Shown: positions 5,870 to 50,168 of the stretch, piece after piece
How positions within the stretch are numbered: position 1 is the stretch's first letter
How the letters are laid out: each line of letters begins with the position of its first letter
Assembly: GCF_901827155.1 (NCBI RefSeq)
Contig: NZ_LR594659.1
Span: forward strand, 62,001 to 126,000
Direction: 5' to 3'
Source: Variovorax sp. PBL-H6
GTDB lineage: Bacteria > Pseudomonadota > Gammaproteobacteria > Burkholderiales > Burkholderiaceae_C
DNA length: 64,000 nt
Program-made: the position numbers and the translations under genes
The notes under the pieces: generated by a model
The model's input: only the letters and a program-made list of their open reading frames with translations
Told to the model about the DNA's origin: nothing
Database searches by the model: none

Positions 5870-5904
5870 CGGTCGGTCTCCTTGGATGAGCCCGCTATTA
5901 TTTT

Positions 5905-5928
5905 TGACTGCCGCGGGCCCCACAGTCA
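5905..5928. promoter_or_regulatory. Palindrome TGACTG-N12-CAGTCA between divergent genes
   Basis: Perfect six-base inverted repeat arms separated by 12 bases in the 105-base gap between the BKACE operon and the Crp/Fnr-type gene. Its position fits an operator for the adjacent regulator, but the half-site differs from the classic Crp (TGTGA) and Fnr (TTGAT) half-sites, so the link is inference. Confidence 0.4.
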
Positions 5929-5974
5929 TTGCGACGACATTTGGAGTCAGGGTTTACGCGGCGCAGGAGCGTCG

Positions 5975-6682
5975 ATGCACAACAAGCCGAGCCGGAGACA
6001 GGCGGCCTCCCTTTCCCTCCCCGACCTGCTGGAGCGCTCGGGCTGGTTCCCGGCGCTGGACGCCGAGGCCCAGGCGCGGGTCCTGGACGAGATGCGCGAG
6101 CAGCCGGTGGCCGCCGGCAGCGCGCTGTGCCGGCGCGGCGATACGCCGCTGCACTGGTACGGCACCCTGGAAGGGCTGCTCAAGTGGTCCGTGACCGCCG
6201 AGGATGGGCGCTCCGTGACGCTCGGCGGCCTCTCCGTCGGCAGCTGGTTCGGCGAAGGCACGCTGCTGCGGGCGCTGCCGCGCTCGGCCGACATCATCGC
6301 GCTGCGCGACAGCCGGGTGGCGCGTCTTCCGGTGGAGACTTTCGAGTGGCTGCACCAGACGCAGCTGAGCTTCAACCACTTCCTGCTGCGCCAGCTCAAC
6401 GAGCGCCTGCACTGGTTCATGGGCAACTACGCGGCGCACCGGTTGCTCGATGCCGATGGTCAGGTGGCGCGGGCCTTGGCGGGGCTGTTCCATCCGTGGC
6501 TGCATCCGGGCAGCGATGTGCACCTGCAGACCTCGCAGGAGGAGATCGCCAATTTGTCCGGGCTGTCGCGCCAGCGCTGCAATGCGGCGCTCAACCGGCT
6601 GCGCGAGGCGGGGCTGCTGCACATCGAGTACGGCGGGATCACCGTGGTCGACCTGGAAGGCCTGCGGCGCTTCGTCGAATAG
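5975..6682 (+). CDS. Crp/Fnr-family transcriptional regulator
   Basis: Regulator with an N-terminal cyclic-nucleotide-binding-type beta-barrel (about residues 20-130) and a C-terminal winged helix (TSQEEIANLSGLSRQRCNAA, about 190-210), 235 residues. The ATG at 5975 follows GGAG at a good distance. No Fnr-type N-terminal cysteine cluster is visible, so an iron-sulfur oxygen sensor is unlikely. It is divergent from the BKACE/dehydrogenase/ligase operon and probably controls it, possibly through the TGACTG palindrome between them. The ligand is unknown; the barrel residues do not obviously match a cAMP site. Confidence 0.88.
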   Translation: MHNKPSRRQAASLSLPDLLERSGWFPALDAEAQARVLDEMREQPVAAGSALCRRGDTPLHWYGTLEGLLKWSVTAEDGRSVTLGGLSVGSWFGEGTLLRALPRSADIIALRDSRVARLPVETFEWLHQTQLSFNHFLLRQLNERLHWFMGNYAAHRLLDADGQVARALAGLFHPWLHPGSDVHLQTSQEEIANLSGLSRQRCNAALNRLREAGLLHIEYGGITVVDLEGLRRFVE

Positions 6683-7004
6683 CGCTGCAGCAGCGGGGCC
6701 GGCTTCAATGCTGCTGTTGCTGCGTCCGGTGCAGGGGCTTGGCGCCGGGGCTCTGGAGCTGTTCACCTCCCCCGTCCGGGCCCGCATGCGGGCGGACCCG
6801 TTGCACATCGTCTTCGTCGCGCCATCGCTCGTAGTCCGCCTCGCGCCGCGCCGGGCGCATCTCCGCACGGCGGAGGACATCATGTCTTGGCATCGCAAGT
6901 TCCTTGAAAGCTACTGCCTTCAAGTTATCGAACGCGCGATCCGCCGATGTCAGGGTGCCGCGTCATCGACCGTGGGAGAACTCGCACGCGCCGCTTGCGC
7001 GCGC
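6683..7004. other. Mostly non-coding gap with inverted repeats
   Basis: Apart from the doubtful 62-residue frame, this stretch holds two GC-rich inverted repeats: one around 6688-6726 (GCAGCAGC facing GCTGCTG) just after the Crp/Fnr stop, and one around 6773-6797 (GTCCG..CCCGC facing GCGGGCGGAC). The first could act as a transcription end for the regulator gene, but no T-run follows, so I do not call a terminator. Confidence 0.3.
6705..6893 (-). CDS. Small hypothetical protein (62 aa), uncertain
   Basis: Short charged frame beginning MPRHDVLRRAEMRPARR and ending with a Gln run and His. The ATG at 6891-6893 is preceded by AAGGA with a seven-base spacer, which is the main reason to list it. 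No recognised domain, no membrane segment. It lies alone in a gap between the Crp/Fnr gene and another small unknown. It could equally be a chance frame in GC-rich DNA. Confidence 0.3.
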   Translation of the reverse strand: MPRHDVLRRAEMRPARREADYERWRDEDDVQRVRPHAGPDGGGEQLQSPGAKPLHRTQQQQH

Positions 7005-7286
7005 TCAGAACTTGTGCGTGAGATGGGGCGGTCCGTTCTCGTCGCCCGTGCTCTCGTCGTCCACCGAGGCGAGCTTGAGGCGGGCCGCCTCATGCCGCAC
7101 CTTCAGTTCCGCGTAGCGATCGCGTTGCGCGCGCTGCGCAGGCGTCTTCTGCATGCAGGCGACGAAGAAGTGCGACTCTTCGGCATTCATGCCGAGCAGC
7201 ACTTCCTGGCCGTGCCCATCGATGGCCAGGGCGCTGCGGTTTTGCAACTCGGCGCGTTGCGCTTCGGGCATTTCGAGCATGTTCAT
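7005..7286 (-). CDS. Small hypothetical protein (93 aa)
   Basis: Unrecognised soluble protein of 93 residues starting MNMLEMPEAQRAELQNR and containing GHGQEVLLGMNAEESHFF. The ATG at 7284-7286 follows GAGGAGCC, a good ribosome binding site, and was preferred over a start 28 codons upstream with none. The middle part has alternating hydrophobic residues, while the C-terminus is charged and probably disordered. It ends about 100 bases upstream of the start of nothing obvious on its strand, so it looks monocistronic. Confidence 0.55.
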   Translation of the reverse strand: MNMLEMPEAQRAELQNRSALAIDGHGQEVLLGMNAEESHFFVACMQKTPAQRAQRDRYAELKVRHEAARLKLASVDDESTGDENGPPHLTHKF

Positions 7287-7386
7287 CGTCGGCTCCTCGA
7301 TTGCATGCCGCAGTCTGCCACTGAGCGCACGGCAATGCAGCGGCAGTCGCCGCACTGCCGGCGGGGTCACCGATTGCGGGGCAGCT

Positions 7387-9189
7387 TCAGCGCCGGTGGT
7401 GGCTGGGCGCCAGCTCGTACACCGGCGTCGCCAACCCCTCCATCCGCGCCTTGAGCTGCAGCGCCAGGAACTGCGAGTAATGGCGCGACTGGTGCAGGTT
7501 GCCGCCGTGGATCCACAGGTTGGGGACCTGCGTGGGCTTCCACATGTTGCGCAGTTCGCCTTCCCACGGGCCGGGGTCCTTGGGCGTGTCGGAGCCGAGG
7601 CCCCAGCATTTGCCGACCTGGTCGGCGATCTCCGGCGAGATCAGGTCGGCCAGCCAGCCGTTCATCGAGCCGTAGCCGGTCGCGTAGACCAGCAGGTCGG
7701 CCGGGAGCTCGCTGCCGTCGCTCAGGGTCACCGACCGCGCGTTGACGCGCTCGATGTCCACGCCGCTCCTCAGCTTGATGCTGCCGTTGGCCACCAGCTC
7801 CGAGGCGCCGACGTCGATGTAGTAGCCCGAGCCCCGGCGCAGGTACTTCATGAACAGGCCCGAGCCGTCGGTGCCGAAGTCGAGCATGAAGCCGGCCTTC
7901 TCGAGCCGGCTGTAGAGATCCGCATCGCGGCGCTTCATCTCCTCGTACACCGGGATCTGGAAGCCATGCATGATCTTGTAGGGCACCGAGGCGAAGATCA
8001 GGTCGGCCTTGTGGTGGTCGATGCCGTTCTTCACCGCCTGTTCCGAATAGAGACCCCCGAGCGCCAATTCCATCAGCGAATCAGAGGGCGCGATGTGGGT
8101 GGACGAGCGCTGGACCATCGTGACATCGGCGCCGTGCTCCCACAGTGCCGCGCAGATGTCGTGCGCCGAATTGTTGGAGCCCAGCACCACGCACTTCTTG
8201 CCCTGGTACGCCTCGGGGCCGGGGTGCTGGCTCGAGTGGTGCTGCTCGCCCTCGAAGTTCTCGGCCCCGGCGATCTGCGGCACGTTCGGGTAGCCCGAGA
8301 CGCCGAGCGCGAATACCAGCTGCCGGGGGCGCAGGACGATCTCCTCGCCCTCACGCTCGACGGTCACCTCCCATTGCTGCTTCTCCTCGTCGAAGCGCGC
8401 CTTCTTCGCGGTGGTCGAGCTCCAGTAGTTGAGCTCCATCACCCGCGTGTACATCTCCAGCCAGTCGCCGATCTTGTCCTTGGGCGAGAACACCGGCCAG
8501 TCGTTCGGGAAGGGCAGGTAGGGCAGGTGGTCGTACCACACCGGGTCGTGCAGGCACAGCGACTTGTAGCGCCGGCGCCAGGAGTCGCCGGCGCGCGCGT
8601 TGCGCTCGACGACGATGGTGGGCACGCCCAGCCGGCGCAGCCGCGCGCCAAGCGCGATGCCGCCCTGCCCGCCGCCGATGATCACCACCTCGGGCTGCAC
8701 CGTCCGGCCCAGCGCCTGCTCTTCCTCCTGCCGCTGTTCGAGCCAGCTCTTGCGGCCTGGGTGCACGCCGTGCTCGGCGCCCTTGGCACGGCGTTCGCCG
8801 GTCTTCTCCTCGAAGCCCTTGAGCTCGGTCATGGTGGTGAGCAGGGTCCAGCATCGCCCGTTGCGCAGCCGCAGGTGGCCGCGGCCGCGCGCGACGCGAG
8901 TCTCGAACACGAACCAGGCGTCGACCACGCCATCGGCCTCGGTGGCCTCCCCCTCGATGGCGAAGCTCGAGGGCTGCGTGTCGGCCAGCCGTGCCTCCAG
9001 CATCGCGCGGATGGCCTCCGGCCCTTCCTGCGTGCGGATGTTCCAGGTGAAGGCGACCAGGTCGCGCCAGTAGCTCTCGGGCTCGAAGAGGGCGAGGGCG
9101 GCATCGACGTCCTGGCGCGCGAGCGCGGCAGCGAAGTCGGCCAGCCAGGCGGCGGCGGCGCGGGTCGGATCGGGGGTCGGGTCTGTCAT
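7387..9189 (-). CDS. Flavin-containing monooxygenase with N-terminal SnoaL-like domain
   Basis: FAD/NADPH-dependent monooxygenase of the FMO/Baeyer-Villiger-like group, 600 residues. Residues about 5-135 form a SnoaL/NTF2-like domain (WLADFAAALARQDVDAALAL...). The FAD Rossmann motif VVIIGGGQGGIALGARL starts near residue 168, the NADPH motif VVLGSNNSAHDI lies near 350, and the family ATGYG motif is near the C-terminus. Likely an oxygenating enzyme for a small hydrophobic or carbonyl substrate; the substrate is not predictable. The ATG at 9187-9189 begins the conserved protein. Upstream, the same frame stays open through a hipA relic without a stop, which would invite an over-long 846-residue call. 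Confidence 0.87.
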   Translation of the reverse strand: MTDPTPDPTRAAAAWLADFAAALARQDVDAALALFEPESYWRDLVAFTWNIRTQEGPEAIRAMLEARLADTQPSSFAIEGEATEADGVVDAWFVFETRVARGRGHLRLRNGRCWTLLTTMTELKGFEEKTGERRAKGAEHGVHPGRKSWLEQRQEEEQALGRTVQPEVVIIGGGQGGIALGARLRRLGVPTIVVERNARAGDSWRRRYKSLCLHDPVWYDHLPYLPFPNDWPVFSPKDKIGDWLEMYTRVMELNYWSSTTAKKARFDEEKQQWEVTVEREGEEIVLRPRQLVFALGVSGYPNVPQIAGAENFEGEQHHSSQHPGPEAYQGKKCVVLGSNNSAHDICAALWEHGADVTMVQRSSTHIAPSDSLMELALGGLYSEQAVKNGIDHHKADLIFASVPYKIMHGFQIPVYEEMKRRDADLYSRLEKAGFMLDFGTDGSGLFMKYLRRGSGYYIDVGASELVANGSIKLRSGVDIERVNARSVTLSDGSELPADLLVYATGYGSMNGWLADLISPEIADQVGKCWGLGSDTPKDPGPWEGELRNMWKPTQVPNLWIHGGNLHQSRHYSQFLALQLKARMEGLATPVYELAPSHHRR

Positions 9190-39570: not shown

Positions 39571-40497
39571 ATGAATGACCGAGCCGAGGCGGTGCTGAGC
39601 ACAAGGGCCGATGCGGCCCCTGCTGCCGACGAAGCGAAAAACCCGCTGCTGGTGGCGCTGGGCGAGCGGGTGCGCAACCTGCGCGCGCGCCGGGGCCTCA
39701 CGCGCAAGGCGGTGGCGCAGGCGGCCGAGGTGTCGGAGCGGCACCTGGCCAATCTCGAATACGGCATCGGCAACGCATCCATCCTGGTGCTGCAGCAGGT
39801 GGCGACCGCGCTGCACTGCTCGCTGGCCGAGCTGGTGGGCGACGTGACGACCAGTTCGCCCGAGTGGCTGCTGATCCGCGAGCTGCTGGAGCGCCGCGGC
39901 GAAGCCGATTTGCGGCGTGCCCGCATCGCTCTGGGCGAATTGCTGGGCACCGCGGCGGGTGACCCGGCGCGTCATCGCCGAATCGCCCTGGTCGGCCTGC
40001 GAGGCGCCGGCAAGTCCACGCTGGGCCAGATGTTGGCGGACGATCTCGACGTGCCCTTCATCGAGCTCAGCCGCGAGATCGAGAAACTTGCCGGCTGCAG
40101 CGTGCGCGAGATCCACGACCTCTACGGCACCAATGCCTACCGCCGCTATGAGCGCCGTGCGCTCGAAGAGGCGATCCAGATCTATGGCGAGGTGGTGATC
40201 GCCACGCCGGGCGGCATCGTCTCCGACCCTGCCACCTTCAACGAGCTGCTCTCGCACTGCACCACCGTCTGGCTCCAGGCCGCGCCCGAGGAGCACATGG
40301 GCCGCGTGGCCGCCCAGGGCGACACGCGACCGATGGCCGCCAGCAAGGAGGCGATGGACGACCTGCGCCGCATCCTTGCGGGCCGCGCGGCCTTCTATTC
40401 CAAAGCCGATCTGAGCGTCGACACCAGCGGGCAGGACCTGGCGCAAAGCTTCCAGGCGCTGCGAACCACGGTGCGGGAGGCGATGAGCCGCGGGTGA
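39571..40497 (+). CDS. boxR: BoxR benzoyl-CoA-responsive repressor
   Basis: Regulator of 308 residues made of an N-terminal XRE-type helix-turn-helix (about 28-90, LTRKAVAQAAEVSERHLANL) joined to a shikimate-kinase-like domain (about 136-300) with the P-loop GLRGAGKST at 142-150. This two-part design is diagnostic of BoxR/BzdR, in which the kinase-like domain senses benzoyl-CoA and releases the DNA. It sits between the two box operons, with TGCA repeats on both sides, and probably represses both until benzoyl-CoA is formed. Confidence 0.94.
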   Translation: MNDRAEAVLSTRADAAPAADEAKNPLLVALGERVRNLRARRGLTRKAVAQAAEVSERHLANLEYGIGNASILVLQQVATALHCSLAELVGDVTTSSPEWLLIRELLERRGEADLRRARIALGELLGTAAGDPARHRRIALVGLRGAGKSTLGQMLADDLDVPFIELSREIEKLAGCSVREIHDLYGTNAYRRYERRALEEAIQIYGEVVIATPGGIVSDPATFNELLSHCTTVWLQAAPEEHMGRVAAQGDTRPMAASKEAMDDLRRILAGRAAFYSKADLSVDTSGQDLAQSFQALRTTVREAMSRG

Positions 40498-40549
40498 CGA
40501 CAGGCGCTGCACCGTTCATCGCGCATTTGTAAAAAAGTAGCCGGTTACC

Positions 40550-40604
40550 TTGACTCGCTCCGGAACATGCACCATGATGCATGTCATTGCAGCAGAAAAC
40601 TGCA
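40550..40604 (+). promoter_or_regulatory. Predicted boxC promoter with four TGCA operator repeats
   Basis: A -35 box TTGACT (40550-40555) and a -10 box CATGAT (40573-40578) stand 17 bases apart. TGCA motifs start at 40568, 40578, 40588 and 40601; the first three are exactly 10 bases apart, one helical turn, and they overlap the -10 box and the expected start point. This arrangement fits repression by BoxR blocking RNA polymerase. Confidence 0.6.
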
Positions 40605-40643
40605 CTATTATTCATTGACCCCCGGCACCCAGGAGACCGCGAC

Positions 40644-42314
40644 ATGACCGAGACCGCTGCCCATCCCGCCCGCGTCGACTACCGCACCGACCCGAGCCAA
40701 TACCGCCACTGGAAGCTCAGCGTCGAGGGCTCCGTGGCCCGGCTGTCGCTGGACATCGCCGAGGACGGCGGCATCCGCCCCGGCTACAAGCTCAAGCTCA
40801 ACAGCTACGACCTGGGCGTGGACATCGAGCTCCACGACGCGCTCAACCGCGTGCGCTTCGAGCATCCGCAAGTGCGCTCGGTGATCGTCACCAGCGCCAA
40901 GGACCGCATCTTCTGCTCCGGGGCCAACATCTTCATGCTGGGTGTCTCCGGCCACGCCTGGAAGGTGAACTTCTGCAAGTTCACCAACGAGACGCGCAAC
41001 GGCATCGAGGACTCGTCGAAGCATTCGGGCCTCAAGTTCCTGGCGGCCGTCAACGGCGCCTGCGCTGGCGGCGGCTACGAGCTGGCGCTGGCCTGCGACG
41101 AGATCCTGCTGGTCGACGACCGCTCCTCTTCCGTGTCGCTGCCCGAAGTTCCGCTGCTGGGTGTGTTGCCTGGCACGGGCGGCCTGACCCGCGTGACCGA
41201 CAAGCGCCATGTGCGCCATGACCTGGCCGACATCTTCTGCACCAGCGTCGAGGGCGTGCGCGGACAGCGTGCCGTCGAATGGCGCCTGGTCGATGCGATC
41301 GCCAAGCCTGCGCAGTTCGGCGCCGCCGTGCAGGAACGTGCCGCCAAGCTGGCTGAGGGCAGCCATCGCCCGGCCGCCGGCAAGGGCGTGACCCTGACGC
41401 GTGTCGAGCGCGAGGACGGCCCGGACAGCATCCGCTATGAATTCGTCACGGTCGAGATCGACCGTGCCCGCCGCACCGCCACGCTGACCGTCAAGGCCCC
41501 GAGCGGCGCGCAGCCCGCCGACATCGCCGGCATCGAGGCCGCGGGCGCCGCCTGGTGGCCGCTCGCGATGGTGCGCCAGCTCGACGACGCCATCCTCAAC
41601 CTGCGCACCAATGAGCTCGACATCGGCACCTGGCTGCTCAAGACCGAGGGCGATGCGCAAGCCGTGCTCGCCAGCGACCAGACCCTGCTCGCGAACAAGG
41701 ACCACTGGCTGGTGCGCGAAACCATCGGCGCGCTGCGCCGCACGCTGGCCCGCCTCGACGTCTCCTCGCGCAGCCTGTTCGCGCTCGTCGAGCCCGGCTC
41801 ATGCTTTGCCGGCACCCTGGCCGAGCTGGCCTTCGCGGCAGACCGAACCTACATGCTGGCGCTGCCCGACGAACCCGAGCGCGCGCCCAAGCTCACGCTC
41901 GACGAGTTCAACTTCGGCTTCTTCCCGATGGTCAACGACCAGAGCCGCCTGCAGCGCCGCTTCTATGAAGAGACCGCGCCGCTGGAAGGCGCCCGCGCCG
42001 CCGCGGGCAAGCCGCTCGATGCCGACGAGGCACTCAAGCTCGGCCTGGTCACCGCCGCGCCCGACGACATCGACTGGAACGACGAGATCCGCATCGCCAT
42101 CGAGGAGCGCGCGGCCATGTCGCCCGATGCGCTCACCGGTCTCGAGGCCAACCTGCGCTTCGCCAGCCAGGAGAACATGCTGACCCGCATCTTCGGCCGG
42201 CTCACCGCCTGGCAGAACTGGATCTTCAACCGCCCGAACGCCGTCGGCGAGAAGGGCGCCCTGAAGGTCTACGGCACCGGCGAGAAAGCCGGCTTCGACC
42301 TCAACCGCGTATGA
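40644..42314 (+). CDS. boxC: 2,3-epoxybenzoyl-CoA dihydrolase BoxC
   Basis: 556-residue crotonase-superfamily enzyme that hydrolyses 2,3-epoxybenzoyl-CoA to 3,4-dehydroadipyl-CoA semialdehyde and formate. Seen: two crotonase-like halves, with FCSGANIFMLG and the oxyanion motif NGACAGGGYELALACDE in the first, and FNFGFFPMVNDQSRL in the second. The ATG at 40644 follows AGGAGA at 40631; an earlier in-frame start lies inside the operator and was rejected. First structural gene after boxR. Confidence 0.95.
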   Translation: MTETAAHPARVDYRTDPSQYRHWKLSVEGSVARLSLDIAEDGGIRPGYKLKLNSYDLGVDIELHDALNRVRFEHPQVRSVIVTSAKDRIFCSGANIFMLGVSGHAWKVNFCKFTNETRNGIEDSSKHSGLKFLAAVNGACAGGGYELALACDEILLVDDRSSSVSLPEVPLLGVLPGTGGLTRVTDKRHVRHDLADIFCTSVEGVRGQRAVEWRLVDAIAKPAQFGAAVQERAAKLAEGSHRPAAGKGVTLTRVEREDGPDSIRYEFVTVEIDRARRTATLTVKAPSGAQPADIAGIEAAGAAWWPLAMVRQLDDAILNLRTNELDIGTWLLKTEGDAQAVLASDQTLLANKDHWLVRETIGALRRTLARLDVSSRSLFALVEPGSCFAGTLAELAFAADRTYMLALPDEPERAPKLTLDEFNFGFFPMVNDQSRLQRRFYEETAPLEGARAAAGKPLDADEALKLGLVTAAPDDIDWNDEIRIAIEERAAMSPDALTGLEANLRFASQENMLTRIFGRLTAWQNWIFNRPNAVGEKGALKVYGTGEKAGFDLNRV

Positions 42315-42360
42315 CCAAGACCACCCCCAGGTTCCCGACCCCATCCGACAAAGGACTGTC

Positions 42361-43788
42361 ATGAGCACGATCAACTACAGCGAGAAGATCCCTAACAACG
42401 TCAACCTGGGCGAAGACCGCACGCTGCAGCGCGCGCTCGAAGGCTGGCAGCCCAACTTCATCCACTGGTGGGATGACGTCGGCCCGGACGAGTCCACGAA
42501 CTACGAGGTCTACCTCCGCACGGCCGTGAGCGTGGATCCGAACGGCTGGGCCCAGTTCGGCCACGTGAAGATGCGCGACTACCGCTGGGGCATCTTCCTG
42601 AACCCGGGCGATGCCAACCGCGAGGTCCACTTCGGCGACCACAAGGGCGAGAAGGCGTGGCAGGACGTGCCCGGCGAGCACCGGGCCAATCTGCGCCGCA
42701 TCATCGTCACGCAGGGCGACACCGAGCCGGCATCCGTCGAGCAGCAGCGCCACCTCGGCCTGACCTGCCCGAGCCAGTACGACCTGCGCAACCTGTTCCA
42801 GGTCAACGTCGAGGAAGGCCGCCACCTGTGGGCCATGGTCTACCTGCTGCACAAGTATTTCGGCCGCGACGGGCGTGAAGAGGCCGACGCGCTGCTGCAA
42901 CGCGAGTCCGGCGACCAGGACAACCCGCGCATCCTCGGCGCCTTCAACGAGAAGACGCCGGACTGGCTGGCCTTCTTCATGTTCACCTACTTCACCGACC
43001 GCGACGGCAAGTTCCAGCTGTCGGCGCTGGCCGAGAGCGCCTTCGACCCGCTGGCGCGCACGACGAAGTTCATGCTGACCGAGGAAGCGCACCACATGTT
43101 CGTGGGCGAGAGCGGCGTTTCGCGCGTGCTCGCGCGCACCGCACAGGTCATGAACGAGCTCAAGACGGACGACCCGCAGAAGGTGCGCGCGGCCGGCGCC
43201 ATCGACCTCGGCACCATCCAGCGCTACCTGAACTTCCACTACAGCGTGACCATCGACCTGTTCGGCGCCGACCAGTCGAGCAATGCCGCCATCTTCTACA
43301 GCTCCGGTCTCAAGGGCCGCTACGAAGAAGGCAAGCGCACCGACGACCACGTGCTCAAGGGCCAGACCTACAAGGTGCTCGAAGTCCAGAACGGCCAGCT
43401 GGTCGAGAAGGACGTGCCCATGCTGAACGCGCTGAACGAAGTGCTGCGCGACGACTTCATCAAGGACTCGGTCGCCGGCGTGAGCCGCTGGAACAAGGTG
43501 CTGGAAAAGGCCGGCATTCCGACCCGCCTGACGGTGCCGCACAAGGCCTTCAACCGCCAGATCGGCGCGCTGGCCGGCATCAAGATGTCGCCTGAAGGCC
43601 GCGTGGTGAACGAGGCCGAGTGGGCCGCGAAGAAGAGCGAGTGGCTGCCCACGCCCGAGGACTTCGCTTTCGTGGCATCGTTGATGGGCCGCGTGGTCGA
43701 CCCCGGCAAGTTCGCCGGCTGGATCGCACCGCCCGTCATGGGCATCAACCGCCAGCCGGTCGATTTCGAGTACGTCCGCTTCGGGTGA
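42361..43788 (+). CDS. boxB: Benzoyl-CoA 2,3-epoxidase oxygenase subunit BoxB
   Basis: 475-residue diiron monooxygenase that epoxidises benzoyl-CoA at C2-C3 with electrons from BoxA. Seen: iron-ligand helices with FQVNVEEGRHLWAMVY (Glu and His ligands) and MLTEEAHHMFVGESGV (Glu, His ligands), matching the four-helix diiron core. It lies 46 bases after boxC. Length and motifs agree with the known BoxB of Azoarcus and Burkholderia. Cytoplasmic. Confidence 0.96.
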   Translation: MSTINYSEKIPNNVNLGEDRTLQRALEGWQPNFIHWWDDVGPDESTNYEVYLRTAVSVDPNGWAQFGHVKMRDYRWGIFLNPGDANREVHFGDHKGEKAWQDVPGEHRANLRRIIVTQGDTEPASVEQQRHLGLTCPSQYDLRNLFQVNVEEGRHLWAMVYLLHKYFGRDGREEADALLQRESGDQDNPRILGAFNEKTPDWLAFFMFTYFTDRDGKFQLSALAESAFDPLARTTKFMLTEEAHHMFVGESGVSRVLARTAQVMNELKTDDPQKVRAAGAIDLGTIQRYLNFHYSVTIDLFGADQSSNAAIFYSSGLKGRYEEGKRTDDHVLKGQTYKVLEVQNGQLVEKDVPMLNALNEVLRDDFIKDSVAGVSRWNKVLEKAGIPTRLTVPHKAFNRQIGALAGIKMSPEGRVVNEAEWAAKKSEWLPTPEDFAFVASLMGRVVDPGKFAGWIAPPVMGINRQPVDFEYVRFG

Positions 43789-43794
43789 CTGTTG

Positions 43795-43940
43795 CTCGCC
43801 CCCAGGTTGCCCGGCACTTCGTGTCCGGGCGCCCACCCCCTGCCGGGGGCAACACCAGCGGCCCGGCGAAGCCGGTTCCGCGGTGTTTCACGAAGCGGCC
43901 GGCGCTTTGCGCGGCCGTGGGGTGGTACAAGCGCCCGAAC
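43795..43940. repeat. GC-rich intergenic hairpin element between boxB and boxA
   Basis: The 187-base gap carries three stem-forming segments: GCCCGG facing CCGGGC around 43809-43830, CCCCC facing GGGGG at 43836-43849, and CGGCC..GCGC facing GCGCGGCCG at 43896-43917 around a TTT loop. I recall the same kind of sequence scattered between genes in Comamonadaceae genomes. Inside an operon it may act as an mRNA processing or stability element, or be a mobile repeat. Confidence 0.55.
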
Positions 43941-43975
43941 GGTATTGGCCGTCAGGGCGGCAAAGGAGATAAGAC

Positions 43976-45259
43976 ATGGACACAGCCACCATCCAACTCG
44001 GCGTCATCAAGCAGCACCTGATCGACCCGGAGATCTGCATTCGCTGCAACACGTGCGAGGCCACCTGCCCGGTCAACGCCATCACGCACGACGACCGCAA
44101 CTACGTGGTGCGTGCCGATGTCTGCAACGGCTGCATGGCGTGCATCTCACCCTGCCCGACAGGCTCCATCGACAACTGGCGCACCATGCCGGTGGCGCGC
44201 GCCTATTCGATCGAAGAGCAGCTCACGTGGGACGAACTGCCCGCCGAGCTCACGCCCGAGCAGCTCGAGGCCGAGGGCATCGCCTCGTCCGACGAGGTCG
44301 TGATGCAGACGCAGCCGGCGGCCGCGCCGCAGCCGGCCTCCGAGCCCGGCGAAGTGCCTTTCAATTCCGCGCAGTACGGTGCCACCGTGCCGCCCTGGTC
44401 GGCCGCGCACGCCTACACCAACCTGTTCCCGCCGAAGAGCCCGACCACCGCCACCGTCGTCGGCAACTTCAACTGCACCGAGGCCGGCTACGAGAACCAG
44501 ACGCACCACATCGTGCTGGACTTCGGCACCATGCCCTTTCCGGTGCTGGAGGGCCAGTCGATCGCCATCATCCCGCCGGGCACCGACGGCAACGGCAAGC
44601 CGCACTTCGCGCGCCAGTACTCCATCGCCAGCCCGCGCAACGGCGAGCGGCCGGGCTACAACAACGTCTCGCTCACGGTGAAGCGCGTGCTGCAAGACCA
44701 CCAGGGCAACCCGGTGCGCGGTGTCTGCAGCAATCACGTATGTGACCTGAAGGTCGGCGACAAGGTCCAGGTCATCGGCCCTTTCGGCAGCTCCTTCCTG
44801 ATGCCCAACCATCCCAAGTCGCACATCGTGATGATCTGCACCGGCACCGGCAGCGCACCCATGCGCGCCATGACCGAATGGCGCCGGCGATTGCGCAAGA
44901 GCGGCAAGTTCGAGAGCGGCAAGCTGCTGCTCTTCTTCGGCGCGCGCACCCAGCAGGAGCTGCCGTACTTCGGCCCGCTGCAGACGCTTCCCAAGGACTT
45001 CATCGACATCAACTTCGCCTTCTCGCGCACGCCGGGGCAGCCCAAGCGCTACGTGCAGGACGCGATGCGCGAGCGTGCCGCCGACCTGGCGGCGCTGCTC
45101 AAGGACGGCCAGACCCACTTCTATGTCTGCGGGCTCAAGAGCATGGAAGAGGGAGTGGTGCTCGCGCTGCGCGACGTGGCGGCAGAGGCGGGCCTGGACT
45201 GGGACAGCGTCGGCGTCGCACTCAAGCGCGAAGGCCGCCTGCATCTCGAGACCTACTAA
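43976..45259 (+). CDS. boxA: Benzoyl-CoA 2,3-epoxidase reductase subunit BoxA
   Basis: 427-residue electron-transfer partner of BoxB. Seen: two 4Fe-4S ferredoxin motifs near the N-terminus ([16 protein letters not shown] and [15 protein letters not shown]), a flexible Ala/Pro-rich linker (about 75-135), and a C-terminal ferredoxin-NADP-reductase module with [11 protein letters not shown] (FAD), [10 protein letters not shown] (NADP) and [13 protein letters not shown]. It passes electrons from NADPH through FAD and iron-sulfur clusters to BoxB. The ATG at 43976 follows AAAGGAG. Confidence 0.95.
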
Positions 45260-45269
45260 GCTCGGCGCC

Positions 45270-45713
45270 ATGAAGTTCGCCGAATTCCATGTGGGTCAGG
45301 TCATCGAGGCCGGGCCCTATGTCGTCACCGAATCCGAGCTGCTGCAGTTCGCCAAGGCCTATGACCCGCAATGGTTCCACACCGACGGGGAGGCGGCCGT
45401 CGCCGGTCCGTTCGGCGGACTGATCGCCAGCGGCTGGCACACCGGCGGCATCGCGATGCGGCTGGTGACCGATGCGGCATTGGCCGGCTCCGAGTCGTTT
45501 GCCTCGCCGGGCCTGGCCTACATGAAATGGCCCAACCCGGTTCGCCCGGGCGATGCGCTGCGGCTCGTGGCTGATGTCATCGAGGTGAGGCGTTCGGAGA
45601 AGCGGCCCACGCTGGGCATCCTGCGGTGGCGATGGCGGCTGTTCAACCAGCGCGAGCAATTGGCGCTGGATCTGGAGGCAACGAGCTTGTTCAAGCTCGA
45701 GGTGGCGCCATGA
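45270..45713 (+). CDS. MaoC-like (R)-enoyl-CoA hydratase family protein
   Basis: 147-residue hot-dog-fold protein of the MaoC family. Seen: the hydratase-2 type segment FAKAYDPQWFHTDGEAA with Asp/His, and GPFGGLIASGWHTGGIAMRL. Members hydrate enoyl-CoAs; here it may hydrate 3,4-dehydroadipyl-CoA products on the way to beta-oxidation. It starts 10 bases after the boxA stop and is the last gene of the right-hand box operon. Confidence 0.85.
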   Translation: MKFAEFHVGQVIEAGPYVVTESELLQFAKAYDPQWFHTDGEAAVAGPFGGLIASGWHTGGIAMRLVTDAALAGSESFASPGLAYMKWPNPVRPGDALRLVADVIEVRRSEKRPTLGILRWRWRLFNQREQLALDLEATSLFKLEVAP

Positions 45714-45772
45714 TGACACCGTGCTCCGCTGGCGTTGGCGGCGCTTCTCCGAGCCGCTCCGACATGAAGCGT

Positions 45773-47161
45773 CTAGGCGGGCGCTAAGGTCACCAGGATC
45801 CCGTTCCTCGGGCGAAGCACGATGGCCGCCTGCAGCTCGACCTTGTGACCGGGGACGAGGCTCACCCGGTAACGCTGAAAGAGCATGGCCAGGAGCAGCT
45901 GCGCCTGCATGGTGGCGAAGCTTTTGCCAATGCACAGGTGGCCGCCCGCGCCAAAGGGAAGGTAAGCGCCGCGGTGGCGGCCTTTGGCGTTCGCCTCGGT
46001 AAAGCGCTCCGGCTCGAACGCCTCCGGCCTCTGCCAGATCGCCGGGTGGCGGTGGATCACATACGGCACGATCGCCACGAGCGACCCGGCAGGGATCCGG
46101 TAGCCCGCGATGTTGTCCTCCGCGACAGCCCTGCGGACCGTAAGCCAGAGAGGCCCCTTGAGGCGCATGGCCTCCTGGAAAGCCATCTTCGTGTACGCGA
46201 GCTTGCCGAGGTCCGCGAACTCTGGGGGGCGGTCGCCGGCGAGCGAGCTTGCCTCGGCGGCGACTCGCTGCGCCGCCTCCGGGTGCCCGCACAAGAAATG
46301 CACGGTCCAGGCGAGCGCTGTTGCGGTCGTCTCGTGGGCCGCGACGAGGAGCGTGACCAGCTCGTCCCGGACCTGCTGCTCGCTCATTCCCTCGCCGGTG
46401 TCCGCATCGCGCGCCACAAGCAGCAGGTCGAGCAGGTCGCCCCCCTCGCAAGGCTGCCGATACCGGCTCCGGATGATCGGATAGATGATTCGATCGATCG
46501 TCCGGCGCGCCTGTTGGAACCGGCGGCTCCCCGGGATCGGGAGCCACTGCGGCAGGGAGTTCGTCCACATGAGGACGTTGATGTGCCTGAATGCGACGTT
46601 CACCGCTTCCGTCAGCTCGCTCATCTCCTTCGCGTTGATCGAGGTGCTGAGCAAGGCGCGCAGGAAGGTGTGGGTCGAGATGCTCTTCAGCTCCTTGAGC
46701 AATTCGATGGGCTGACCGTTCTCCGCGGCCGGGCGCCACGCCTCGAGCCCCTCGGCTGCGGCCTCGGCCAGGAGCGACGTCATCACTGCGAGCTTCTGGC
46801 GGTGGAACTGAGGCTGCATCATTCGCCGCTGACGCAGCCAGGCGCTCCCCTCGGTCGTCCCGAGCCCGTTGCCCGCGAGCTGCTGGCCCGCGGCCCACAT
46901 GCTCCCGTCCTTGATGAAGTTGCCACTGTTGGCATGGAAGACATGCTCGACGTGGTCGGGGTGACTGAGCAGATAGATCTTCTCGAAGCCCACGTTGACG
47001 CAGGCCACGTCTCCATGCCGCTTCACGACGCCCAGCAAGGCCTGCAGGGGATCGAGGAGCACTTGGGGGAGCAGGCCAACAAGCGGGTAGCCGCTCGCAC
47101 CCGGAACCGCAAGGGCGCGCTTGGCACCGGTGTCGCATGTCTGTTCGCTACGGTTCACCAT
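45773..47161 (-). CDS. Cytochrome P450 of the terpenoid cluster
   Basis: 462-residue soluble bacterial P450 with no N-terminal anchor. Seen: the oxygen-activating I-helix AAHETT (274-279), the K-helix EAMR (Glu330, Arg333), and the heme-binding FGAGGHLCIG with Cys410. It would hydroxylate or otherwise oxidise a hydrophobic substrate, with electrons from a ferredoxin not encoded here. The start lies five bases after the stop of the cis-prenyltransferase gene, so it is the last gene of a three-gene operon and probably oxidises the terpene formed by its partners. Convergent to the MaoC gene. Confidence 0.93.
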   Translation of the reverse strand: MVNRSEQTCDTGAKRALAVPGASGYPLVGLLPQVLLDPLQALLGVVKRHGDVACVNVGFEKIYLLSHPDHVEHVFHANSGNFIKDGSMWAAGQQLAGNGLGTTEGSAWLRQRRMMQPQFHRQKLAVMTSLLAEAAAEGLEAWRPAAENGQPIELLKELKSISTHTFLRALLSTSINAKEMSELTEAVNVAFRHINVLMWTNSLPQWLPIPGSRRFQQARRTIDRIIYPIIRSRYRQPCEGGDLLDLLLVARDADTGEGMSEQQVRDELVTLLVAAHETTATALAWTVHFLCGHPEAAQRVAAEASSLAGDRPPEFADLGKLAYTKMAFQEAMRLKGPLWLTVRRAVAEDNIAGYRIPAGSLVAIVPYVIHRHPAIWQRPEAFEPERFTEANAKGRHRGAYLPFGAGGHLCIGKSFATMQAQLLLAMLFQRYRVSLVPGHKVELQAAIVLRPRNGILVTLAPA

Positions 47162-47166
47162 GGGGC

Positions 47167-47916
47167 CTACACACCAAAACGGCGTTGCCGCTGTTCAAAG
47201 GCCCGCAGCGCCTGGCGGAAATCGGCTTCCTCGAAATCGGGCCACAACGAATTGGAGAAATAGAGCTCCGCGTAGGCGACCTGCCACAGCAAGAAGCCAG
47301 ACAGTCGTTGTTCGCCGGATGTGCGGATCATCAGATCGAGGGGCGGCTGATCGTGAGTAAAGAGGCGTTTGTTGACGTTTTCCTGGGACAACAGGCGGGT
47401 GGCTATTTCTTCACCCGAGAAGCCCATGCGGGCGCCTTCCTCGATGAGCTCCCGAACGGCAGAGATGATCTCGTCGTGACCGTCGTAGGCGATGGCAATA
47501 TTGACCAGCATGCCGTCGACATCTTTGGTCGTTTCCGCGATGTCACGCAGCGCCATCACGATGCTTGGGGGCAGCAAACTGATCGCCCCGATGGGCTTGA
47601 GCCGCCAACGGCGAGCTTGCGCCAGCTTCTGGAGGCCGCCGACGATGATGTCTGCGAGTTCACACACATCGTGTGGGGAGCGTCGCATGTTGTCGATGGA
47701 CAATGCCCAGAGGGTGACGAACTCGATACGAGCCTTGTCGCACCAGGCGAGGAGTTGGCCTACTTTCTCGGCCCCACGGCGGTAACTGTCGCCGCTTGCC
47801 GCGCCGTTCTTTGCTGCCCAGCGTCGGTTGCCATCCAGAATCACGCCGACGTGGCGTGGAATCGGGGATGTCGTGAGCTGCTCCATTCGGGCGTTGTCGA
47901 TAGCGTTGCTACCCAT
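47167..47916 (-). CDS. cis-Prenyltransferase (UppS-like) of the terpenoid cluster
   Basis: 249-residue undecaprenyl/short-chain Z-prenyl diphosphate synthase family enzyme. Seen: HVGVILDGNRRWA with catalytic Asp28, LWALSIDNMRRSP, and IRTSGEQRLSGFLLWQ followed by YAELYF. The segment LSIDNMRR is nearer to short-chain Z-farnesyl diphosphate synthases than to cell-wall UppS (LSSENWNRP type). It overlaps the end of the terpene synthase gene by eight bases. Since an essential uppS is normally next to cdsA and dxr elsewhere, this copy is probably a dedicated enzyme supplying a cis-allylic diphosphate for cyclisation. The ATG at 47914-47916 is used. Moderate GC. Confidence 0.88.
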   Translation of the reverse strand: MGSNAIDNARMEQLTTSPIPRHVGVILDGNRRWAAKNGAASGDSYRRGAEKVGQLLAWCDKARIEFVTLWALSIDNMRRSPHDVCELADIIVGGLQKLAQARRWRLKPIGAISLLPPSIVMALRDIAETTKDVDGMLVNIAIAYDGHDEIISAVRELIEEGARMGFSGEEIATRLLSQENVNKRLFTHDQPPLDLMIRTSGEQRLSGFLLWQVAYAELYFSNSLWPDFEEADFRQALRAFEQRQRRFGV

Positions 47917-49006
47917 GGAGCTGCTCCCACCACCATGCAATATGGGGGATGTCGATGGGCTCGAGGGATGCATCTGATGGCGTATCGGAGAAGCGCATGG
48001 TGGACTGGGTTGCGTTCGGAGAGCGTCCGTCCGGATTGCGATAGCGCAGCGAGACATTCCCGTAGTCGATGTTGGCGCGGATGAAATGACCCAGCCCGAC
48101 GATGTAGCGGTTCAGGTCGGAACTCGCCCGGCGTGCGATCTGCTCGCGCAGGGTCAGGAACAGGCACATCAGCCGGTCGCGCATGCGCACAGCGCGGTCA
48201 AGCGCTTCCGGCACGGAACAGCCGAAGTGGGCGGCGAGAACACTGACGTAGTTCAGCAGGAGAACACCGTGGCGCTGCTGAAACCACAAATCCTTTGCGT
48301 AGGAGTAAAGGTCGTTGTCGACAGCGACGATGATTCCGGAGATCTCGGTGAGCGCCCGCACCGCCGGGGCATCCCACTCCTTGCCGGACACCTCGATGCC
48401 ATTGAGGAAGTCCAACCAGCCCGTGAAGGCCGTGCCGCCAACGGTATACAGGCGCTGAGCCGTGTAGTCGGCAAGTGAGGGGAGTTCCGTACGCGTCTGG
48501 GAGGCGACCTCCCAAGCGACTGCGGACAGCCAGTCCTGCTGGCCGTCGATGATCCGGTGCCTTTGGACGGGCGTGCTCATGCCGTGCAGGCGCTCCGCGA
48601 GATCGCGCAAGGCAACGGAGGAGGGGGAGCCTTCGGGCAGCAGAGCGGCGGCGGGTACCCTGAGCGTCCGGATGACCTTTACGGCGAGCTCGGCGAGTTG
48701 GGCGAGTCCGCCCCCGGCCTTGGCGGTAGGCAGCCGGTCATAGAACTCATCCCATACAAAGGCGAGGTGGAACCAGTCCGTGCAGATCTGGAGGTGCTCG
48801 GGGATTCCGTCGGGCGCCATTCTGGCGGCGAGTTCACCGCAATTGAACGCCTGCACCGTCTCGCGGCCGGTTGCGTCAGGCCAGAAGGCGAACTGCGCGA
48901 TCCAGTCTTCTGAGCGGCGCTGGATCTCCGACACCAGGGGGTGGACTGCGGATGGAATCGGGCAGTAAACCGGCGGCGGATCGACATGGATCGGTTCATG
49001 TGTCAT
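47909..49006 (-). CDS. Class I terpene synthase
   Basis: 365-residue bacterial type terpene cyclase. Seen: a metal motif DEFYD (86-90) in LAFVWDEFYDRL, the second metal motif NDLYSYAKD (231-239, Asn/Ser/Asp ligands) and the RY pair (321-322) near the C-terminus that senses diphosphate. The first motif is DExxD rather than the common DDxxD/E. It would ionise and cyclise a prenyl diphosphate; product unknown. First gene of the operon with the cis-prenyltransferase and P450. No trans-FPP synthase gene lies nearby, so the cis-enzyme may make its substrate. Confidence 0.88.
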   Translation of the reverse strand: MTHEPIHVDPPPVYCPIPSAVHPLVSEIQRRSEDWIAQFAFWPDATGRETVQAFNCGELAARMAPDGIPEHLQICTDWFHLAFVWDEFYDRLPTAKAGGGLAQLAELAVKVIRTLRVPAAALLPEGSPSSVALRDLAERLHGMSTPVQRHRIIDGQQDWLSAVAWEVASQTRTELPSLADYTAQRLYTVGGTAFTGWLDFLNGIEVSGKEWDAPAVRALTEISGIIVAVDNDLYSYAKDLWFQQRHGVLLLNYVSVLAAHFGCSVPEALDRAVRMRDRLMCLFLTLREQIARRASSDLNRYIVGLGHFIRANIDYGNVSLRYRNPDGRSPNATQSTMRFSDTPSDASLEPIDIPHIAWWWEQLHG

Positions 49007-49280
49007 CGGAACTTTCCGGTTGCGTCAGACACGACCTTAAGCAGCCCACTCGCCGGAGCGGCTTCGTTGCGACAAAAAGCCAGATTTCGTCCCCAGCGGC
49101 AGCCTGACCCCGTGGAGAAATATGCTAGATGGCCGGTGGCGTTCGGCTACGCCTCCCGTTCAAGCCTGGGCCTGTGCCCGGTGTGGAGTCAACAGACCTG
49201 GACGGTGGCGTACGAGTTCGCCACGCAACAACTCAACGACTGACTTCAGGCCGCCCTTCTCAAGCTCGCGGTAGCCCCGA
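49007..49280. other. Gap upstream of the terpenoid operon
   Basis: 274 bases between the terpene synthase start and the end of the EamA gene. It should hold the operon's promoter. I see no convincing -35/-10 pair or operator, only a small GGAA/TTCC repeat near the start codon. A short frame on the other strand ending at 49243 is probably not a gene. Confidence 0.3.
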
Positions 49281-50168
49281 CTAAGACGATGCCTGCGTCC
49301 TGGCCGCCCGCGCCTTCCCCGTCAACACGAGCGCGATGCCCCCAAGAATCACGATGGAGCAGAGCATCAAGCGCGGCGTGATCGCTTCCGACAGGAAGAT
49401 CACCCCACCGAAGGCGGCGATCGGCGGCACCGACAGCTGCACCGTCGCTGCCCGCATCGCCGAGAGCCCCGGCAGCGCCGCATACCAGATGACATAGCCG
49501 ATGCCCGAGGTCAGCGCGCCCGAGGCCACGGCCAGCGCAACGCCAGCCGCATCGGCGTGCGCGCTGCCGGCAAGCACCAGGCTCAGCGCCAATGCCATCG
49601 GCGCCGCCCGCAAGAAGTTGCGCGCTGTCGCGGCCAGCGGATCGGCCACGCCGCGCCCGCGCAGCGAATACACACCCCAGGCCACGCCCGCGACCCCCAT
49701 CAGCATCGCGCCGACCGGTGGCGGCGCCGCGACGCCCGGCGAGACCAGGTAGACCAGGCCCGCAACCGCCAGCACGAAGCCCGACCACGCCACCGGCCCG
49801 AACATCTCGCCCGCGCGCAGGCCGGCGCAGAGCATCGTCAGCTGCACCGCACCGAACAGGATCAGCGCCCCCGTGCCGGCCGGCAGGCTGAGGTAGGCGA
49901 AGGAGAAGAACGCGACATACACGAACAGCATCGCCGCCGCGAGCCAGTCCGCGCGGCCGGCCGCCTGCGGCCGGGAACGCAGGCGCACGACCAGCGCGAG
50001 CGTGAGCGCGCCCGCCACCAGCCGGATGCTGCCGAAGCTGGCGGCATCGATGCCCCCTTGTTGCAGCGCCATGCGGCACAGCAGCGAATTGGCCGCGAAG
50101 GCGAGCATCGCGGCCACGGTGAGCCCGACAATCCGAAGGCCGGGCGGGCCGTCAAGCGGCTCAGGCAT
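49281..50168 (-). CDS. EamA/DMT-family membrane transporter
   Basis: Drug/metabolite transporter superfamily protein, 295 residues, with ten predicted membrane helices in two EamA repeats. Seen: AANSLLCRMALQQGGIDAAS at the start of repeat one and TSGIGYVIWYAALPGLSAMR with PPIAAFGGVIFLSEA in repeat two. Such proteins export or import small metabolites; the substrate is unknown. The ATG at 50166-50168 overlaps the stop of the DUF2182 gene by eight bases, so the two are coupled. Confidence 0.88.
   Translation of the reverse strand: MPEPLDGPPGLRIVGLTVAAMLAFAANSLLCRMALQQGGIDAASFGSIRLVAGALTLALVVRLRSRPQAAGRADWLAAAMLFVYVAFFSFAYLSLPAGTGALILFGAVQLTMLCAGLRAGEMFGPVAWSGFVLAVAGLVYLVSPGVAAPPPVGAMLMGVAGVAWGVYSLRGRGVADPLAATARNFLRAAPMALALSLVLAGSAHADAAGVALAVASGALTSGIGYVIWYAALPGLSAMRAATVQLSVPPIAAFGGVIFLSEAITPRLMLCSIVILGGIALVLTGKARAARTQASS

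Follow-up and report, generated by a model that had tools for sequence, protein, structure and literature searches.

In tomato, the cis-prenyltransferase (cPT) NDPS1 supplies the terpene synthases (TPSs) with which its gene is clustered. The genes for NDPS1, TPS19 and TPS20 lie close together and serve one pathway, according to an excerpt of PMC4364678, but they are plant genes and do not form an operon. The idea of a cPT dedicated to a TPS also has a bacterial precedent in Streptomyces clavuligerus, known here from a Protein Data Bank (PDB) title and the locus alone: 8WU7 is titled a cis-geranylfarnesyl diphosphate synthase, and the cPT gene is followed by genes for a class I TPS, annotated as hypothetical, and a cytochrome P450. 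Here we describe a locus with the same three gene families in Variovorax sp. PBL-H6, on the minus strand of a 64,000-nucleotide stretch of contig NZ_LR594659.1 (positions 62,001 to 126,000; hereafter the window). Judging from the sequences, it is probable that the window cPT supplies the TPS with a Z-prenyl diphosphate and that the P450 oxidises the product, the three genes being an acquired operon whose end product is an oxidised cyclic terpenoid. The novelty lies in a compact, operon-like set in a proteobacterial host and in the recurrence of such pairs with quite different TPS genes.

Each of the related loci resembles the window in part. The S. clavuligerus cPT is 46% identical to the window cPT and shares with it the motifs WALS and YDG and a three-residue gap described below, but identity falls to 28% for the TPS (178 aligned residues) and 31% for the P450 (~428); the P450 gene is also convergent there, and upstream there is a second TPS. 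On plasmid CP075613 of Streptomyces sp. JCM17656 we found the nearest named TPS, 68.5% identical to that of the window and adjoining a cPT. There, however, the cPT is only 42% identical, the order is cPT-TPS, and a flavin amine oxidoreductase lies downstream in place of the P450. A plasmid of Streptomyces YIM 121038 has all three families in the order P450-cPT-TPS, with a P450/cPT overlap of 4 nt, but its TPS can barely be aligned to the window TPS (31% over 67 residues). A preliminary description, drawn from the window sequence, knew of no described cluster of this type in Comamonadaceae; this may stand for that family, but the S. clavuligerus enzyme of 8WU7 has been studied and its gene lies beside those for a class I TPS and a P450. 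Among the matches listed in our search of open-licence papers, none dealt with 8WU7 or with a bacterial cPT-TPS cluster.

The features of the locus are as follows (coordinates are those of the window; aa, amino acids).

47909..49006, minus strand: class I TPS, 365 aa, first gene; 114.6 bits against PF19086.
47167..47916, minus strand: cPT, 249 aa, second gene; a longer open reading frame (ORF) from 48057 is possible.
45773..47161, minus strand: cytochrome P450, 462 aa, third gene; 275.3 bits against PF00067.
49007..49274, minus strand: upstream intergenic stretch, presumed from its position only to be the promoter region.
45704..49274, no strand: block absent from two close relatives by blastn; boundaries approximate.

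The three genes are intact ORFs (45773-49006). The end of the TPS gene and the start of the cPT gene share 8 nt (ATGGGTAG), and 5 nt separate the cPT stop from the P450 start; because the genes overlap or nearly touch on one strand, we infer an operon-like unit. A simple scan of 49007..49274, upstream of the TPS gene, found no sigma-70-like site. The gene order, overlaps and catalytic motifs given in the preliminary description were all borne out. Its placement of the cPT start deep inside the TPS gene applies to a 296-aa ORF, which begins 149 nt within that gene, but the start at 47916 appears more likely, since it is preceded seven bases 5' by GGGAG and lies so close to the TPS end. The resulting 249-aa form is the one listed for the Variovorax genome (P0121), with the caveat that five of six close cPT relatives (P0123-P0127) have longer N-termini.

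The pairing of cPT and TPS genes recurs beyond the window. We examined the cPT region of JCM17656 and 22 others from plasmid records (L138-L159), hand-picked from the cPT matches and including several near-identical copies, and detected TPSs in them with a profile built from sequences collected in the analysis. An adjacent TPS was found in three of the 22 (4/23 with JCM17656), namely in S. clavuligerus (117 bits against PF19086), in Rhizobium etli Mim1 (92.3 bits), where it is likewise annotated as hypothetical, and in YIM 121038. These three TPSs have only 22-31% local identity to the window TPS, so very dissimilar TPSs enter into such pairs. Because it recurs in unrelated loci, a functional link between cPT and TPS is likely. 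No clear exchange of the cPT between the window and JCM17656 could be made out: their TPSs are 69% and their cPTs 42% identical, yet a cPT clade uniting the two is not rejected by the approximately unbiased test (p-AU 0.346). An Asp or Ser after the Tyr of the YGG motif is found in all five TPS-linked loci but is not diagnostic of them, because plasmid cPTs without a TPS also have it (L144, L149, L153, L156, L157 and L159).

As a control, we took 46 regions around homologous TPS genes, comprising 39 of 78 places (mostly the best-scoring) and a further 4 + 2 + 1 loci (L004-L007, L009, L010 and L053-L092; six shorter than 15 kb). None of the 46 holds a cPT, the 17-kb Streptomyces cattleyicolor region around cattleyene synthase (CyS; L009) included, whereas a trans-prenyl synthase occurs in 10 and a P450 in 18. 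A cPT is thus not a general companion of this TPS subfamily, and one next to such a TPS does not belong to the background; in the window, where the two genes adjoin and overlap as in a dedicated cluster, the cPT stands where some TPS relatives keep a trans-prenyl synthase. The lack of a trans-farnesyl diphosphate (FPP) synthase, also remarked on in the preliminary description, holds for the cluster but not for the genome, and is weak evidence for a dedicated Z-precursor, because 36 of the 46 control regions lack a trans-prenyl synthase too.

In the pathway that we propose, the cPT would condense a trans allylic diphosphate of the host, either geranyl diphosphate, FPP or geranylgeranyl diphosphate (GGPP), with one or a few units of isopentenyl diphosphate. 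This would introduce a cis double bond, and chain growth would end at C15-C25. The class I TPS would then ionise and cyclise the Z-prenyl diphosphate; given the 2Z geometry, it need not first isomerise the allylic end. Finally, the P450 would hydroxylate or further oxidise the hydrocarbon, drawing on redox partners encoded at other loci of the genome.

The TPS and P450 both carry intact motifs of their families. The TPS is a class I bacterial terpene synthase by PF19086 (cut-off 23.7 bits), with the motifs DEFYD and NDLYSYAKD (an NSE-type triad in an E to D variant) and a C-terminal RY. It shares fold and subfamily, at 32-37% identity, with CyS (GGPP, C20), selinadiene synthase, a Kitasatospora viridis sesterterpene synthase and the SVS ancestral designs. 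Against NF041565, the selina-4(15),7(11)-diene synthase family, it reaches 236 bits, below the equivalog cut-off of 450. Of twelve residues lining the GGPP contour in CyS, six are conserved and six differ, among them F62, which is L in the window TPS, and W318, which is Y. An excerpt of PMC9543850 reports that Ala variants of CyS at F62 and W318 lose most or all product. The P450 belongs to its family by PF00067 and has the heme-thiolate loop FGAGGHLCIG, the ExxR motif as EAMR and the I-helix Thr in AHETT.

The cPT, taken as the 296-aa ORF, scores 226.9 bits against PF01255 (cut-off 27), which places it among the cis-prenyltransferases; its motifs are ILDGNRRWA, LSIDNMRR and IRTSGEQRLS (also YDG and SGEQRLSG). 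The only other match to it in its own genome, at C1:3578594-3579265 and 37% identical, is a canonical UppS with FSSENWNRP, YGG and GGEQRLSN. The preliminary description held that its reading would fall if the window cPT were the organism's sole UppS, which is not the case. The unlikeness of the window cPT to the cell-wall enzyme also held up: the Trp of the SENW-type motif is Met in LSIDNMRR, and among proteins of solved structure two Z-prenyl synthases, one of C25 and one of C15 type, are nearer to it in sequence than UppS is. The former, 8wu7, is the top PDB hit by phmmer, with 46% identity in the structural alignment; Rv1086, which has the same fold and is 40% identical, follows closely. 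The window cPT is also three residues shorter than Escherichia coli UppS near the end of what we read from the alignment as helix 3. The same gap is found in the four other TPS-linked cPTs and in P0128, P0132 and P0191, actinobacterial "short-chain Z-isoprenyl" relatives, and a Tsukamurella cPT lacks two residues there. Helix 3 length affects the product chain length of cPTs, as stated in an excerpt of PMC7573591. Among 399 genomes of the order, 28 other cPT matches below E 1e-42 were found, all at E 8e-48 or worse and 36-40% identical (window, E 5e-167), and we read these as housekeeping UppS genes.

These data bear on what the cPT makes. It could be a resistant or duplicate cell-wall UppS, the cluster then being two unrelated things side by side. 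We consider this very improbable: the two enzymes share a Pfam family, but a canonical UppS is encoded elsewhere, the SENW-type Trp and three residues of the presumed helix 3 are missing, and the cPT is absent from close relatives together with the TPS and P450. Rv1086 is a Z,E-FPP synthase, according to an excerpt of PMC7839719. An enzyme of that C15 kind, leading to a sesquiterpenoid, would be a sub-case of the proposed pathway, and one that we find somewhat unlikely. At the position conventionally numbered A69, Rv1086 has Leu by our reading of the alignment, and this Leu reportedly limits it to C15. Leu is the commonest residue there in the whole aligned set (110/147), whereas all seven members of the window clade have Ala and thus no bulky residue, and the best PDB match is the C25-titled enzyme. 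Because UppS and the S. clavuligerus cis-geranylfarnesyl synthase also have Ala at this position, a C20-C25 product would be as likely as C15. In the cPT tree, the window cPT is not sister to 8wu7, although a clade joining the two is not rejected (p-AU 0.224). We place the chain length anywhere within C15-C25, a range that sequence does not narrow.

The TPS could also ignore the cPT product, cyclising all-trans FPP or GGPP of the host while the cPT, merely co-transcribed, makes a separate Z-polyprenyl as a spare lipid carrier or prenyl donor. We judge this distinctly unlikely, but several observations favour it or otherwise weigh against the proposed supply of a Z-prenyl diphosphate to the TPS. 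The genome carries three trans-polyprenyl synthases outside the cluster, one of which NCBIfam identifies as an FPP synthase (338.7 bits; cut-off 275). Of the closest characterised TPS relatives, selinadiene synthase uses the all-trans substrate FPP. The nearest characterised homologue, CyS, takes GGPP, also all-trans (excerpt of PMC9543850). For six of the plasmid cPTs that we examined, the neighbour is a ParA gene or one for an MpaB-family oxygenase, not a TPS, and 19 of the 23 cPT regions have no TPS inside the fetched stretch. A single origin of the TPS-linked cPTs is unsupported by the tree, in which the five do not form one clade but need 4 changes, a number as low in 113 of 500 shuffles; a tree constrained to unite them with the window clade gave a borderline p-AU of 0.059, near rejection. 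In addition, C55 UppS too has Ala at the A69 position, and the P450 does not stand out in base composition, as detailed below. On the other side, besides the window, cPT-TPS adjacency occurs in unrelated loci and two phyla, 0 of the 46 homologous TPS regions has a cPT, and no other acceptor gene was seen in the block. The supply of a Z-prenyl diphosphate by the cPT to the TPS therefore remains the reading that we prefer.

The three genes were likely imported as a block. By blastn, two close relatives in the genus (L132 and L133) have an empty site, with both flanks present and the cluster absent: one has ~310 bp in place of window positions 45703 to 49275, with 92% identity upstream, and the other has ~15 bp in place of 45699 to 49319. 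Four more relatives gave a match to the upstream flank alone within the sequence retrieved. The TPS was found in 1 of 61 relatives and once among the 399 genomes sampled from the family, each time in the window's own genome, and in 2 of the 399 sampled from the order, own genome counted, the second with just 31% identity. At E 1e-45 or better, the cPT was found in 1 of 101 genomes of the genus, again the window's own. Import is likely because of the empty site in two close relatives and this last count, and the rarity in relatives makes loss from all of them the less likely alternative. At third codon positions, the cPT has a GC content of 0.73, the TPS of 0.79 and the P450 of 0.87, compared with 0.84-0.94 in seven neighbouring genes; the P450 lies inside this range, so it is not clearly foreign by itself.

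Relatives of all three genes are present in jgi/lgn/ena data (TPS 69-95%, cPT 78-86% and P450 73-89% identity). The cPT P0125 and the P450 P0244 are both listed on one 5571-base contig, which suggests that these genes are linked. P0125, a window-clade cPT from jgi/ena data, begins with ~23 residues that are those of the TPS N-terminus; most of the TPS seems to have been lost in frame, or this is an assembly artefact. The Streptomyces TPS relatives at 47-50% identity (P0006-P0008) were not in the genome samples, where the best match was 42% identical. In a phage collection, 25 records match the cPT, all at less than 60% identity.

Several other isoprenoid loci came to light. The third host trans-polyprenyl synthase (C1:3266284-3267024; L171:8102-9169, outside the window) adjoins a large oxidoreductase-like ORF and is a possible second isoprenoid cluster and GGPP source. 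In three plasmid loci (L154:6040-8219, L155:6076-8246 and L142:6896-8810), the cPT gene is followed directly by an MpaB-family oxygenase gene, possibly a polyprenoid-modifying pair. A divergent cPT adjoins a ParA-family gene in a repeated plasmid module (L153, L156 and L157, near 5900-7750). The Streptomyces NBC_01456 plasmid (L140:5898-9305) carries a run of four genes: trans-polyprenyl synthetase, cPT, hypothetical protein and again cPT. Two S. anulatus plasmid cPTs (L144 and L149, near 6000) lie between hypothetical proteins; in L149, the neighbours of 361 and 226 aa have no Pfam match at E 0.001 and could be unusual cyclases. Within the window, directly before the terpene block (39571-45713), lies a gene set ending in a MaoC-domain protein (PF01575), which we take to be for benzoyl-CoA (box) degradation.

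More tentatively, bacteria may repeatedly have placed a short-chain cPT in the slot where some relatives keep a trans-prenyl synthase, with differing TPSs, the genes being hidden under labels such as "uppS" and "hypothetical protein". The window operon might then turn a (2Z)-C20 or (2Z)-C25 diphosphate into an oxidised di- or sesterterpenoid; we hold this extended proposal to be possible, at somewhat less than even chances. If the proposed pathway is correct, the window would hold a minimal, clonable operon in which a dedicated enzyme sets the geometry of the precursor, and the natural use of Z-prenyl diphosphates by bacterial class I cyclases would become directly testable with two genes. A simple search rule, a short-chain cPT next to a PF19086 gene, may then point to bacterial terpenoids whose genes are now labelled uppS or hypothetical.

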